Shown: in pieces, positions 1,421 through 5,620 of the stretch
Numbering within the stretch: position 1 is the first letter of the stretch
How the letters are laid out: each line of letters begins with the position of its first letter
Origin: Pigmentiphaga litoralis
GTDB taxonomy: Bacteria; Pseudomonadota; Gammaproteobacteria; Burkholderiales; Burkholderiaceae_B
NCBI RefSeq assembly: GCF_013408655.1
Contig: NZ_JACCBP010000001.1
Span: 2,356,001 to 2,420,000 of the forward strand
Direction of reading: 5' to 3'
Length of the DNA: 64,000 bases
Notes under the pieces: model-generated
Seen by the model: only the letters and a program-made list of their open reading frames with translations
Database searches by the model: none
Told to the model about the DNA's origin: nothing
Made by a program: the position numbers and the translations under genes

Positions 1421-2002
1421 GTGCGAGTTCGGTGGATGACACGGGCGCAAGCCGACGCCTTGATCGAAGCCATCCCTTGGGACTGGATGAAGGACGCATG
1501 CGCCTGCGCCTTGGCCACGGGCATGCGGGCTGCGGAAATCCTGACCGTGAGATTCAACCAAGTCGACCTGTCGCGGCGACTGGCATGGGTGTCCGCTGCA
1601 GACGCGAAGTCAGGTCGCGCCAGGGCCGTGCCGCTCAATGACGAGGCGGTCGCAATCGTCGAGCGGCGCAAGCGCACTCATCCGTCGCTGGTGTTCACCC
1701 GCAACGGGCGGCCGCAGCCGCAGATTGACCCGAAGATGTTCGGCCGGGCATGCGCCCGAGCAGGCATTGAGGATTTGCGCTTCCACGACCTTCGGCATAC
1801 CTGGGCAAGCTGGCATGTCCAGGCAGGAACGCCGCTGTTTGTACTCAAGGAGCTTGGGGGTTGGGAGACGCTGGAGATGGTCAAGAAGTACGCCCACCTG
1901 AACCCTGAACACCTGGCCGCGTACGCAGGCGCGGTCACGTTTTGGGCACAACCAGCGCCAGAAGCAAAAACGCCACCGGCTAGGGTGGCGTTAAATGCTT
2001 GA
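1421..2002 (+). pseudogene. Truncated tyrosine recombinase (phage/island integrase), catalytic domain only
   Basis: The 193 residues cover only the C-terminal catalytic domain of a phage-type integrase; family members are usually 320-400 residues. Visible active-site residues are Arg36 in TGMRAAE, Lys63, His122 and Arg125 in HDLRHT, Trp148 in the LGGW motif where many relatives have His, and nucleophile Tyr157 in KKYAHL. The frame upstream is closed by two consecutive TAG codons at 1403-1408, so the arm-binding and core-binding domains are missing. GTG at 1421 is only the first possible start. The gene ends 16 bases from the 3' end of tRNA-Met, the usual position of an island integrase at its attachment site. 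Recombination activity is unlikely without the lost domains. Confidence 0.8.
1966..1992 (-). terminator. Intrinsic terminator of tRNA-Met (minus strand)
   Basis: A perfect 9-bp stem (AACGCCACC at 1969-1977 with GGTGGCGTT at 1984-1992) has a 6-base loop. Read on the minus strand it is followed by five T residues. It lies just downstream of the tRNA-Met 3' end and inside the last codons of the recombinase on the other strand, so the element's coding sequence has merged with a host terminator. Confidence 0.8.
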
Positions 2003-2018
2003 TTTACAACGGTATTCT

Positions 2019-2095
<77 letters not shown>

Positions 2096-2462: not shown

Positions 2463-3383
2463 TCAGCCGGCCGTCATCAACCGCGCTTCAGCCAGCGGCG
2501 CGCGGTCCAGCACATCATTCGCCATCGCCATGGCATGGGACACTGCATCGCCCAGCACGATCACGGCCGGACTGCCCATGTCGTGCGTCTCGATATCGGC
2601 CGCCATGTGCGCCACGGTCGTCGTCAGATGCCGCTGATCCGCACAGGTGGCGCGTTGCACGACCGCGACCGGCAGGTCGGCCCGGAAGCCGGATGCCATC
2701 AGCATGCGCGCCAGGCGGCCCGGGTCGCTCATGCCCATGTAGCAAACGATCGTCAGGCCGCTTTGCGCCAGGGCCTTCCAATACGGTTGGGACCCTGCCC
2801 CGGTTTCGTCCACCGTGTGCGCCGTGACCAGGGCCACGCCACGCGCGACCTGGCGGTGGGTGATGGGCAATCCCATCTGCGCGCCGATCGCGAGCCCGGC
2901 CGTCAGGCCGGCCACCGCTTCGACCTGCACGCCGCGTTCGGCCAGCCACGCCCATTCTTCGCCGCCCCGGCCAAAGATGAAGGCATCGCCGCCCTTCACG
3001 CGCGCCACGGTTTCGCCCTGGCGGGCGTAGCGCAGCATCAGCCGCAAGATGAAGGGTTGCGGCGTCGATTTGCAGCCACCGCGTTTGCCGACGCGCACGA
3101 TGCGGGTTCCGGGCGCTGCCAACTCCAGCACGCCCGGGCCAACCAGATCATCGACCAGCCATACGGTGCAGGCAGCCAGCGTCTTGACGGCACGCACGGT
3201 CAACAGGTCCGGATCCCCCGGGCCCGCGCCGACCAGCCAGACCTTGCCGCGGCAGGGCACGGACCGCACGGGCTCGGACGAAAACGTCGACGACGGCAGC
3301 GGGTTGAACGACAAGGCGTCAGACACCACCGCCGTCGCTGGCAGTGCGGACACAGGCAGATCCGTGATCAGGGCGGATGTCAT
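2463..3383 (-). CDS. cobA: Uroporphyrinogen-III C-methyltransferase (SUMT)
   Basis: This enzyme methylates uroporphyrinogen III at C2 and C7 with SAM to give precorrin-2, the branch point to siroheme and B12. The 306-residue protein shows the family motifs VGAGPGDPDLL (51-61), KGGDAFIFGRGGEE (130-143), ITHR (174-177) and TAHT (187-190). Residues 1-45 are a non-conserved extension. The start overlaps the nasS stop by four bases (ATGA), so the two are translationally coupled. Siroheme is the cofactor of assimilatory nitrite reductase, which explains cotranscription with the nitrate sensor. The usual Asp-Arg of the second motif reads DDLV here, a mild deviation. Confidence 0.93.
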   Translation of the reverse strand: MTSALITDLPVSALPATAVVSDALSFNPLPSSTFSSEPVRSVPCRGKVWLVGAGPGDPDLLTVRAVKTLAACTVWLVDDLVGPGVLELAAPGTRIVRVGKRGGCKSTPQPFILRLMLRYARQGETVARVKGGDAFIFGRGGEEWAWLAERGVQVEAVAGLTAGLAIGAQMGLPITHRQVARGVALVTAHTVDETGAGSQPYWKALAQSGLTIVCYMGMSDPGRLARMLMASGFRADLPVAVVQRATCADQRHLTTTVAHMAADIETHDMGSPAVIVLGDAVSHAMAMANDVLDRAPLAEARLMTAG

Positions 3384-4573
3384 GACGTCACCTCGTTGGA
3401 AGTCGATGCGGGCGTCGATGCAGCAGCGGCAAACTGGCTCAGATACGTATCGGCATGGCGCGCGTCCCACGTGACGCCGTCCAGCAGCACCGCGCTGCGC
3501 CACGGGCTTGCCGGCACGGCCACCCCGGCCATGGCCGCGGCATCCTGGTACACATCGATCCGATGCACGGCGCGGGCGACCGCCTCGTAGTCCGGCACGT
3601 CGCGCAGCAGGCCCCAGCGCACGAACTGCGTCAGGAACCACATGCCGTCCGACACGAAGGGATAGGTCACTTCCCCGTCATTGAAAAAGGTCAGCGGGTG
3701 CGTATCGCGCCAGCGGCGGCCCTGCGCATCGCTGGACATGCCCTGCAGGCAATCGGCCAGCAGCGTGTAGGGCTGGTCGATGGCATCGGCCGCGGCCAGG
3801 CGGCGGGCCACGCCGTCGCGGGCGCGCATCGTGTCCAGATAGCGGGCGGTGTCCAGCAGCGCGGCGACCAGGGCGCGCGCGGTGTTCGGATGGCGCGTGA
3901 CCCAGTCGTCGGTCGCGGCCAGGACTTTTTCGGGATGGTCCGGCCAGATGGCCTGGCTGGTGCACGCAATGATTCCTTCGTTGCGCTGCGCGGCCAGGGT
4001 GTTCCACGGCTCGCCCACGCAGAAGGCATGTACCAGTCCTTCCTGCGCGGCAGCCACCATGCGCGGCGGCGGCACCACCACGCGGTCCACATCGCGCGCC
4101 GGATCGATGCCGTGCGCCGCCAGCCAGTAGGCCAGCCACATTGCATGCGTGCCCGTGGCAAAGGTATGCGCCAACGTCAGGCCGGCGCCGTCGCGCACTG
4201 CGCGCGCCATGGACCAGCCATCCCGCACACCCTGCTCCGCCAGGCTTTTGCCGATCGTGATGCCCTGGCCGTTGTGGTTCAGGCCCATCAATATCGACAT
4301 GGGCGTGGCGGCCGACCCGATGCCCAGATGCGCGCCGTACACCATGCCGTACAGCGCGTGCGATGCGTCCAGCGATCCATTGGCCAGACCGTCGCGCACC
4401 ATCGACCAGGAGGCCTGACGGACCGGTTCGATGCGGATGCCGTAGCGCCGGTCGAACCCGAGTTCGGCGGCCATGACAACGGTCGCGCAGTCCACCAGCG
4501 GGATGAAGCCTAGCCGGACGGTGTCGAGTTCTGGGGCGTCGCCATCGGCGCGCCGGGAAAGAGGGGATGTCAT
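3380..4573 (-). CDS. nasS: Nitrate-sensing NasS-type protein (cytoplasmic NrtA/CmpA-like)
   Basis: The 397-residue protein has the periplasmic-binding fold of nitrate/bicarbonate receptors (NrtA, CmpA) but no signal peptide. That, plus the adjacent nasT, identifies it as the soluble sensor NasS. In studied proteobacteria NasS binds NasT and releases it when nitrate or nitrite is bound, allowing antitermination. Start ATG 4573 is chosen because the upstream in-frame ATG at 4615 lies inside the terminator hairpin of the leader. The stop overlaps the cobA start. Transcription appears to depend on a sigma-54 promoter and an ANTAR-type leader directly upstream, so NasS would be produced under both nitrogen limitation and nitrate induction. 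An exported transporter component is less likely. Confidence 0.85.
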   Translation of the reverse strand: MTSPLSRRADGDAPELDTVRLGFIPLVDCATVVMAAELGFDRRYGIRIEPVRQASWSMVRDGLANGSLDASHALYGMVYGAHLGIGSAATPMSILMGLNHNGQGITIGKSLAEQGVRDGWSMARAVRDGAGLTLAHTFATGTHAMWLAYWLAAHGIDPARDVDRVVVPPPRMVAAAQEGLVHAFCVGEPWNTLAAQRNEGIIACTSQAIWPDHPEKVLAATDDWVTRHPNTARALVAALLDTARYLDTMRARDGVARRLAAADAIDQPYTLLADCLQGMSSDAQGRRWRDTHPLTFFNDGEVTYPFVSDGMWFLTQFVRWGLLRDVPDYEAVARAVHRIDVYQDAAAMAGVAVPASPWRSAVLLDGVTWDARHADTYLSQFAAAASTPASTSNEVTS

Positions 4574-4598: not shown

Positions 4599-4646
4599 AA
4601 AAAGCGCCCGTCCACGCCAGGAAACCTTCCTGACCTGAACGGACGC
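4599..4646 (-). terminator. Attenuator terminator in the nasS leader
   Basis: Read on the minus strand, GCGUCCGU (4646-4639) pairs with ACGGGCGC (4611-4604), with one G-U pair. It encloses an inner CAGGAA/TTCCTG hairpin (4618-4632), and five U residues (4603-4599) follow. It sits 26 bases before the nasS ATG, so it must be read through for nasS and cobA to be expressed. Its 5' arm is shared with the hexaloop hairpin at 4639-4656, which makes the two structures mutually exclusive. Confidence 0.8.
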
Positions 4647-4704
4647 CGTTGTCCGTGACGCGGCTGTCACGATGCGCCGTCATTGGTGCATCGAGCCACG
4701 CTCG
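4639..4704 (-). promoter_or_regulatory. ANTAR-type antitermination leader (tandem hexaloop hairpins)
   Basis: On the minus strand three consecutive hairpins have six-base loops. Hairpin 1 is 4692-4671: stem GAUGCACC/GGCGCAUC with one mismatch, loop AAUGAC. Hairpin 2 is 4671-4654: stem CGUGAC/GUCACG, loop AGCCGC. Hairpin 3 is 4656-4639: stem ACGGAC/GUCCGU, loop AACGGC. ANTAR proteins such as NasR and NasT recognise paired hairpins with hexaloops having A at position 1 and G at position 4. Loops 1 and 3 satisfy this; loop 2 has A1 but not G4. Hairpin 3 uses the terminator's 5' arm. The upstream nasT gene encodes the expected ANTAR partner. Confidence 0.8.
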
Positions 4705-4714
4705 TTGATCATCA

Positions 4715-4731
4715 TGCAAAGCGCGTGCCAG
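4715..4731 (-). promoter_or_regulatory. Sigma-54 promoter of the nasS-cobA leader
   Basis: The minus strand reads CTGGCACGCGCTTTGCA (4731-4715), matching the sigma-54 consensus YTGGCAC-N5-TTGCW, with GG (4729-4728) and GC (4717-4716) exactly ten bases apart. The predicted transcript start, about 12 bases downstream near 4704, falls just before the first hexaloop hairpin, so the full leader would be transcribed. Confidence 0.8.
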
Positions 4732-4839: not shown

Positions 4840-4856
4840 TGCACCAAACCCATGCA
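4840..4856. promoter_or_regulatory. NtrC-like dyad upstream of the sigma-54 promoter
   Basis: TGCACCAAACCCATGCA resembles the NtrC site TGCAC-N7-GTGCA, with one base off in the right half. Its centre lies about 144 bases upstream of the predicted start, a normal distance for an enhancer-bound NtrC. Only one clear site is seen. Confidence 0.5.
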
Positions 4857-4902: not shown

Positions 4903-5481
4903 TCACGGCTTGAGCCACCCCGCCACTTCCACCATTTCGCGCGCCACGTCACCGATGCGCCGCTGGCTTTGCATCGCCCGTTCGCGCAGCAGCTTGTAGG
5001 CTTCGTCTTCGGACACGCCGCGCAGCTGCATCAACAGGCCCTTGGCCTTGTCGACCCACTGCCGTTCGGCCAGCTTCTTCTTGGCGTCCTGCAGCTCTTC
5101 GCGCAGTTCACGTTCGACACTGAAGCGTTCGATCGCCACGTCCAGCAAGGTCTGGATACGTGTGGCGGGCACTTCACCGACGACATAGGCCGCCACGCCG
5201 ACTTCCAGCGCCAGCCGGATCGTATTGCGGCCGCCGTCTCCCGTGAACATGACGACCGGACGCGCGCTGTGTTCGCTTGCCACACAGACGTCTTCCAGCG
5301 TGTCGCGCGAGGGCGCGTCCGAATCGATCAGCACGACATCGGGCTTGAGCTTGGCGATGACGCTCGCCATTCCGACGCTGGCCTCGATCTCGGCAATCAC
5401 ATTGACGCCCGCTTCGGCCAGTGTCTTCCGCAGCGACACCGCCCTGCCCGATCCGTCGTTAATCAGTACCACATTGAGCAT
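4903..5481 (-). CDS. nasT: NasT-type ANTAR antitermination regulator
   Basis: The 192-residue protein has an N-terminal receiver-like domain (about 1-120, with Asp53/Asp55 in the VVLIDSDAP strand). A coiled linker and a C-terminal ANTAR RNA-binding domain (about 130-188) follow; the core VDKAKGLLM...EDEAYKLLR...IGDVA matches the family. NasT binds hexaloop hairpins in nitrate-assimilation leaders and prevents termination unless held by NasS. ATG 5481 is preceded by GGGGAA at good spacing; longer frames would run back toward miaB, which is divergently transcribed. The nasS gene follows after a 329-base leader region containing the probable target RNA. Confidence 0.9.
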   Translation of the reverse strand: MLNVVLINDGSGRAVSLRKTLAEAGVNVIAEIEASVGMASVIAKLKPDVVLIDSDAPSRDTLEDVCVASEHSARPVVMFTGDGGRNTIRLALEVGVAAYVVGEVPATRIQTLLDVAIERFSVERELREELQDAKKKLAERQWVDKAKGLLMQLRGVSEDEAYKLLRERAMQSQRRIGDVAREMVEVAGWLKP

Positions 5482-5620
5482 GTTGTTCCCCGTCGCTTCC
5501 GGCGACGCAAGTTGTATGCCATTGCTGGCTTCGTGATGCCGCCATCCCCAATGCCCATGCGGGGTCGCGTGATAAACTGGCCGGCTTGCCCCCGGGCTAA
5601 TTCCCGTTACGGCACCTTCA

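Follow-up and report, generated by a model that had tools for sequence, protein, structure and literature searches.

A predicted NasT-type antitermination leader between nasT and nasS-cobA in a Pigmentiphaga-like genome

In Paracoccus, the NasS-NasT complex is described as dissociating with nitrate, and NasT as binding the nasA leader (PMC3795266). The leader model made up of the hairpins P1 and P2 and a terminator is likewise published (PMC3369931, PMC3369936). According to PMC5424462, nasT and nasS of Paracoccus are cotranscribed, with nasT the more strongly nitrate-induced, so separate control of nasS is not general. In Pseudomonas, NasT, sigma-54 and NtrC act on NalA, the nirBD leader, as summarized in a review (PMC12830290). 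Here we describe a leader found in a 64,000-nucleotide stretch of DNA, analysed whole and called the window below; its membership of this class is ordinary and well supported, and its position is the instructive part.

The host genome is Pigmentiphaga-like, the nasS of the window being 96% identical to that of P. litoralis (L001). The original prediction had put a leader between nasT and nasS-cobA on the minus strand, and it had this context right: coordinates and Pfam and NCBIfam matches agree. The features of the locus are as follows; mismatches are counted against the sigma-54 consensus.

5506..5521, minus strand: sigma-54-like site TGGCATACAACTTGCG before nasT, three mismatches
4903..5481, minus strand: nasT, receiver-ANTAR antiterminator (PF03861, 63.8 bits)
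4840..4856, minus strand: NtrC-like enhancer site TGCATGGGTTTGGTGCA, from a pattern search, 110 bases upstream of the sigma-54 promoter
4715..4730, minus strand: sigma-54 (-24/-12) promoter TGGCACG-CGCT-TTGCA (TGGCACGCGCTTTGCA), zero mismatches
4702..4706, minus strand: putative transcription start near 4704, about 12 nt past the -12 GC, from sigma-54 geometry
4694..4701, minus strand: 5' half of the P1 basal extension, GCGUGGCU, paired with 4665-4658 (AGCCGCGU) in the minimum-energy fold
4671..4692, minus strand: P1 hairpin GAUGCACC-AAUGAC-GGCGCAUC, A1/G4 hexaloop, one A.C mismatch
4655..4670, minus strand: "hairpin 2", GUGAC-AGCCGC-GUCAC, unsupported as a functional hairpin
4639..4656, minus strand: P2 hairpin ACGGAC-AACGGC-GUCCGU, predicted antiterminator, A1/G4 hexaloop
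4599..4647, minus strand: intrinsic terminator, stem 4647-4604 and U5 run 4603-4599
3380..4573, minus strand: nasS, NrtA/NasS (NMT1_2) family nitrate sensor, no signal peptide (Pfam PF13379, 285 bits)
2463..3383, minus strand: cobA, uroporphyrinogen-III C-methyltransferase of the siroheme pathway (NCBIfam TIGR01469, 259 bits)

The start of cobA overlaps the stop of nasS; the gene directly after nasS is cobA and not a permease gene, and a MiaB-like frame lies upstream of nasT on the opposite strand. NasT, encoded adjoining the leader, is the one ANTAR protein found in the genome, and an NtrC gene above the NCBIfam cut-off is present. We rejected an NrtA identity for the nasS product: it lacks a signal peptide, no permease gene stands next to it, and in the tree it groups with the NasS of a genus-mate (G116) and a Parachitinimonas protein, apart from NrtA (support 100/97). 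That tree kept 29 rows after the motif used had dropped 18 candidates, including four of five Pseudomonas NasS; its signal-peptide-less proteins are spread over more than one clade (4 changes), and the crude flag used for signal peptides was wrong for L056, L150 and L151, where twin-arginine signals are seen by eye. The name NasS therefore rests on gene context as well as on the tree. Downstream of cobA, a phage-integrase-family frame (PF00589, 193 aa; window 1421-2002, plus strand) ends 17 bases from a tRNA-Met (2019-2095, minus strand), which looks like the edge of an integrated element.

The predicted fold bears out two structural claims made earlier from the letters alone. Loops 1 and 3, AAUGAC and AACGGC, do follow the A1/G4 rule, and the last hairpin, P2, does consume the 5' arm of the terminator: that arm contains loop bases 4-6 and the 3' arm of P2, and the shared bases make the two structures mutually exclusive. 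A 131-nt leader segment folds at -63.8 kcal/mol, compared with -44.5 kcal/mol for 200 shuffles (sd 3.65; z -5.3). When the RNA is folded at growing lengths, P2 is predicted first and then gives way to the full terminator, which is favoured by about 11.5 kcal/mol (-60.8 kcal/mol versus -49.3 kcal/mol with P2 forced), an arrangement in which a protein holding P2 would permit read-through. Close pairs of A1/G4 hexaloop hairpins are not special in themselves (7 in the window, both strands, versus 13.0 per shuffled window); the composite of such a pair with a terminator that uses the second 3' arm occurs once, versus 0.1 per shuffled window (40 shuffles). The P1 and P2 loops are 28 nt apart here and 15 to 71 nt apart across the 49 class leaders assembled below, and the linker measures 14 nt without the P1 extension and 1 to 3 nt with it. 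In the eutP leader, a 14-nt P1-P2 linker is described as having impaired EutV (PMC3369931).

Of the three hairpins originally placed directly before the terminator, "three instead of two", the outer ones stand as P1 and P2 and the middle one falls. We discarded it as a conserved third element, as it is out of the predicted fold, broken in P. litoralis and at chance level across the class. On paper it is worth -5.0 kcal/mol, and the minimum-energy fold uses its AGCCGCGU with GCGUGGCU to lengthen P1; two arm substitutions in P. litoralis abolish it (-5.0 to 0.0 kcal/mol) and leave the P1 extension intact. Across the class, hairpins of -4 kcal/mol or better occur in 17 of the 30 testable linkers of at least 12 nt (19 more were too short) and in 311 of 600 shuffles, no more commonly than by chance. 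In the nrtABC and nirB leaders of this genome the linker does form a stable hairpin (-10.1 and -15.9 kcal/mol), so that a linker hairpin may serve as a spacer in individual leaders.

The sigma-54 promoter and the NtrC-like site had both been missed earlier. Both sigma-54 sites (4730-4715 and 5521-5506) are named by comparison with the consensus, TGGCACGNNNNTTGCW, and the site at 4856-4840 by comparison with that of NtrC. At 4730-4715 the -24 GG and -12 GC stand in consensus context, as expected of a sigma-54-dependent promoter. Sites with at most one mismatch number 2 in the window, one of them exact, versus 0.7 per shuffled window (28 in 40 shuffles), and with so many expected by chance, position and conservation count as evidence too. 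The exact promoter and the NtrC-like site together suggest that nasS-cobA is a separate, nitrogen-regulated operon. Before nasT, no hexaloops were found after the sigma-54-like site, which is followed by a short hairpin (GTCGC..GCGAC). That site is identical in P. litoralis, which says little because the whole miaB-nasT gap is nearly identical there.

For the nasS leader, the one close relative is P. litoralis. Upstream, 51 of 104 spacer bases are kept (21 gapped), compared with 16 of 16 in the sigma-54 site, 14 of 17 in the NtrC-like site (two of the other three being gaps), 43 of 44 in P1 with its extension, and 17 of 18 in P2. The terminator keeps 36 of 44 (8 substitutions), at -34.6 kcal/mol here and -33.6 kcal/mol there; one pair is changed on both sides (C-G to U-A) and one on one side, two pairs of the window fold are lost, and the stem re-registers. 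The compensatory changes named beforehand as support are seen in one terminator pair and, across the class, in P1 and P2; within P1 itself, identical in P. litoralis, there is none in this comparison.

Class leaders were drawn from the best 80 of 501 confirmed nasS/nrtA stretches, from regions flanking matches within the genus and the family, and from Pseudomonas matches to the Rfam family P11. Ninety-five rows led by a sigma-54 site were reduced to 84 with a P2 motif, 79 with P1 and finally 49 under 85% identity, among which L001 stands for the window leader. P1 arms pair in 89% of cells versus 61% shuffled and P2 arms in 81% versus 71% (0 of 1000 shuffles reach either value), figures that are upper estimates because the motifs used for picking leaders favour stems; of the P2 pairs, the two outermost are weak (28 and 18 of 49 leaders). 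Overlap of P2 with the terminator played no part in selection; in 48 of 49 leaders, four or more of the five nucleotides in the 3' arm of P2 go into the terminator, versus 368 of 980 shuffled tails. With the terminator register fixed to the U-run, pairing did not clearly stand out (50 and 78 of 1000 shuffles did as well), because the register varies between leaders, and the per-sequence fold test was used instead.

A MAFFT alignment of 40 of these leaders (A1) omitted the three rows of this genome and P. litoralis, two whose spacing is long, and L009, L015, L052 and L072 for doubtful P1. In A1, 93.1% of cells pair versus 76.5% shuffled (0 of 500 shuffles; slid controls at most 56%), covariation is 0.517 versus 0.213 (0 of 500; at most 0.150 when slid), and 8 of 10 pairs change on both sides, as many as are reached by 8 of 500 shuffles. 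The covariance model built from it (R1), which holds no leader from this genome or P. litoralis, finds the nasS leader in the window at 4693-4638 with 37.4 bits (E 5.8e-7; next best 18.9 bits, E 0.0092). Genome-wide, with 150 scored out of 9356 first-look candidates and 19 matches listed at E <=10, R1 ranks nrtABC at 41.2 bits, nasS at 37.4 (E 5.6e-5), nirB at 27.0 (E 0.012) and the next match at 23.6. This last (C1:1850345) has no recognised sigma-54 site beside it and was not accepted as a leader. Three of the five modelled P1 pairs of the nasS leader are aligned as non-standard, so that its score is carried mainly by loops and P2. The Rfam models give 20.6 bits for RF00625 (P11; full model, E 0.015 to 0.019) and 16.3 bits for RF03032 (narK RNA), under their gathering cut-offs of 70 and 43.2.

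The leader is thus recovered at rank two in its genome by a model trained on the leaders of others, and the reading of this RNA as an ANTAR-type antitermination leader is supported by the A1/G4 loops of P1 and P2, the terminator overlap and the model match. That nrtABC and nirB of the same genome carry the same kind of leader had been overlooked. The leader is a standard member of the NasR/NasT antitermination class and, judged from its sequence, very probably acts on nasS-cobA by antitermination.

Placement between nasT and nasS, called unusual at the outset, is real and not unique. We searched 399 genomes of the order with R1 at E <=0.002, under stricter filters that lose weak matches; 71 genomes gave matches at 74 places, of which two are this genome's own and the other 72 were read. 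A sigma-54-like site (at most three mismatches, within 130 nt upstream) is present at 70 of the 72 and a U-run of at least four within 110 nt downstream at 69. The first recognised gene is nrtA-like at 50 places, narK-like at 9, nirB-like at 6, nasA, NasS-like and cobA at one each, and none at 4. Of 51 NrtA/NasS-like products, the N-terminus could be read in 44, and inspection by eye finds no signal peptide in three of these (L228, L242, L243). These belong to three genomes of the Burkholderiales genus g121, in which nasT, leader, nasS and a nirB-like gene follow one another on one strand, an order that matches the window as far as nasS; at L228, Pfam matches bear out both the NMT1_2 and the receiver-ANTAR protein.

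Beyond this search, in Parachitinimonas caeni (L011), a leader precedes nasS and then a NarK-like transporter (297.8 bits versus a TIGR00886 cut-off of 311.7), and no nasT was seen in the 4-kb locus. This leader, some 120-250 nt ahead of the tblastn start (518), has a sigma-54-like site and three A1/G4 hexaloop hairpins before a terminator; the first and last loops are 128 nt apart with the third between, outside the range of the 49 class leaders, and it is possibly a true three-hexaloop leader. Four of five Pseudomonas nasS-nasT loci (L058, L065, L068 and L080; not L041) show a sigma-54-like site, P1- and P2-like hexaloops and a terminator before nasS, the P2 stem having about 3 pairs. Of the places found across 11 genomes of the genus, those of this genome and P. 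litoralis alone have the leader directly before nasS. In G116 a single leader precedes nrtABC-nasS-cobA and nasT is divergent; in seven others nasT lies farther off and another NrtA/NasS-like gene follows nrtABC (over a contig break in G199).

The genus holds two NasT lineages: the NasT of the window is 38-40% identical to those of seven genus-mates (L136-L141, L143; nrtABC-nasT-(nasS-like)), 71% like the divergent one of G116 and 58-69% like the NasT proteins of other Alcaligenaceae. At two Alcaligenaceae loci, L149 (G081) and L150 (G053), nasT is divergent from nrtABC-nirB-nasA; NasS/NrtA matches number 3 and 2, and among the matches listed the one strong match in each is nrtA, so that NasT may work without a dedicated NasS in these genomes. 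In G480 (C2:1400922-1401451; L237 and L245), two leader matches some 360 bases apart are divergent; one precedes a nirB-like gene and the other, lacking a U-run of 4, precedes cobA-nasT-nasS.

Among the titles and abstracts surveyed, none describes an ANTAR leader placed immediately in front of nasS, which is not proof of absence. Given its recurrence in g121, Parachitinimonas and some Pseudomonas, together with the amiE precedent discussed below, a sensor that belongs to its own antitermination regulon is a design that recurs. In the window and in g121, and probably in Parachitinimonas, the antiterminator gene does not come directly after the leader of the sensor gene.

The position of the leader can be read in other ways. 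NirB requires siroheme, so cobA has to be induced along with nitrite reductase, and the leader might be kept for cobA, with nasS a mere passenger and NasS feedback without physiological weight. Work by Romeo in 2012 reportedly placed P. aeruginosa cobA within a NasT-controlled nirBD-PA1779-cobA operon; in this genome, the 19-kb nirB locus has no cobA match, G116 also has nasS-cobA behind one leader after nrtABC, and the leader-like match before cobA-nasT-nasS in G480 points the same way. Leaders nevertheless precede nasS where the next gene is not cobA (NarK-like in Parachitinimonas, nirB-like in g121, nasT in Pseudomonas), and we regard this reading as rather unlikely.

Far less credible is a plain, unregulated 3' terminator of nasT with hexaloops arisen by chance, which has the least to recommend it: its position 3' of nasT, a simple terminator scan without excess (1 found versus 1.0 in shuffles) and the unenriched hexaloop pairs (7 versus 13.0) would suit it, but a sigma-54 promoter sits between nasT and the leader, R1 ranks the leader second in the genome, and P1 and P2 are kept against P. 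litoralis while the spacer is lost. Scarcely more probable is that the terminated leader is a small RNA with targets of its own, attenuation of nasS being secondary; Rfam lists the related Pseudomonas leader as the sRNA P11, yet in three Pseudomonas genomes P11 matches over the cut-off stand, leader-like, immediately upstream of a nirB-like gene.

We favour a switch in front of nasS that is probably controlled by the neighbouring NasT. Under nitrogen limitation, NtrC and sigma-54 RNA polymerase would start the RNA near 4704, and its default fold would be the terminator ending at the U-run 4603-4599, before nasS. Nitrate or nitrite would free NasT from NasS; a NasT dimer would bind the P1 and P2 hexaloops and hold P2, its 3' arm would be kept from the terminator, and transcription would continue into nasS and cobA. 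With the same leader type on nrtABC and nirB, one NasT regulon would cover uptake, reduction, siroheme supply and the sensor. For this locus we infer NasT binding, the nitrate response, the start site, the use of NtrC and physiological feedback alike.

Since NasS inactivates NasT, a nasS leader opened by NasT would close a negative loop, in which free NasT raises NasS and leaves less free NasT; published NasS/NasT biochemistry and the gene order make this loop a reasonable proposal. Without a nitrate signal the same logic would lower NasS, so that restraint of NasT would depend on basal or lingering NasS. The placement puts the gene for the nitrate sensor in the regulon of the antiterminator that it restrains, with siroheme supply linked through cobA, and if the loop works as drawn it would offer a small, testable circuit for the NasS/NasT balance. 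More speculatively, and we are doubtful of it, the nasS leader might act as a pulse generator and stoichiometry control of antiterminator and anti-antiterminator, reached in several lineages. Here nasT would have its own leaderless nitrogen-limitation promoter and nasS would be made only with the help of NasT, so that on nitrogen starvation NasT would precede its inhibitor; a nitrate-independent pulse of the nas regulon would follow, ended by NasS, and later expression would need nitrate.

The proposed NasT-controlled nasS leader most resembles that of nirBD-cobA in Pseudomonas, NalA or Rfam P11, which from its position is presumably the same RNA. The nasS leader shares with it a sigma-54 promoter, two A1/G4 hexaloops, an overlap of P2 with the terminator, and cobA in the regulon. 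Control by NasT is known for NalA (PMC12830290, a review) and predicted for the leader of the window, which differs in having nasS and not nirB as its first gene and in scoring 20.6 bits against the P11 gathering score of 70. The three Pseudomonas P11 matches before nirB-like genes (L152, L153, L154) hold a sigma-54-like site and ANTAR hexaloops inside, and P11 there looks like a nirB leader. Second leaders with ACGACAAAGACGTCGC at L041:4371, L058:4304, L065:4522 and L068:4288 match the narK RNA consensus, which itself begins with a sigma-54-like site, and from these sequences narK RNA is probably an ANTAR leader too. The comparison thus suggests that P11, and probably narK RNA, are ANTAR leaders and not a separate sRNA and a motif of unknown role.

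The Klebsiella nasF leader, served by NasR, shares the anatomy of P1, P2 and terminator (PMC3369936); unlike NasT in the window, NasR is a one-component NIT-ANTAR sensor, with no separate sensor gene for feedback. Other units with a leader before nasS differ from the window in the gene after nasS, and in Pseudomonas nasT is also behind the leader. A precedent for the circuit is already published in amiEBCRS, where AmiC, a ligand-binding inhibitor, is encoded behind the leader that its ANTAR antiterminator AmiR opens (PMC5259723, PMC3369936). In P. aeruginosa, however, AmiR is described as lying with AmiC behind the amiE leader (PMC5259723), whereas in the window nasT stands outside, with a sigma-54-like site of its own.
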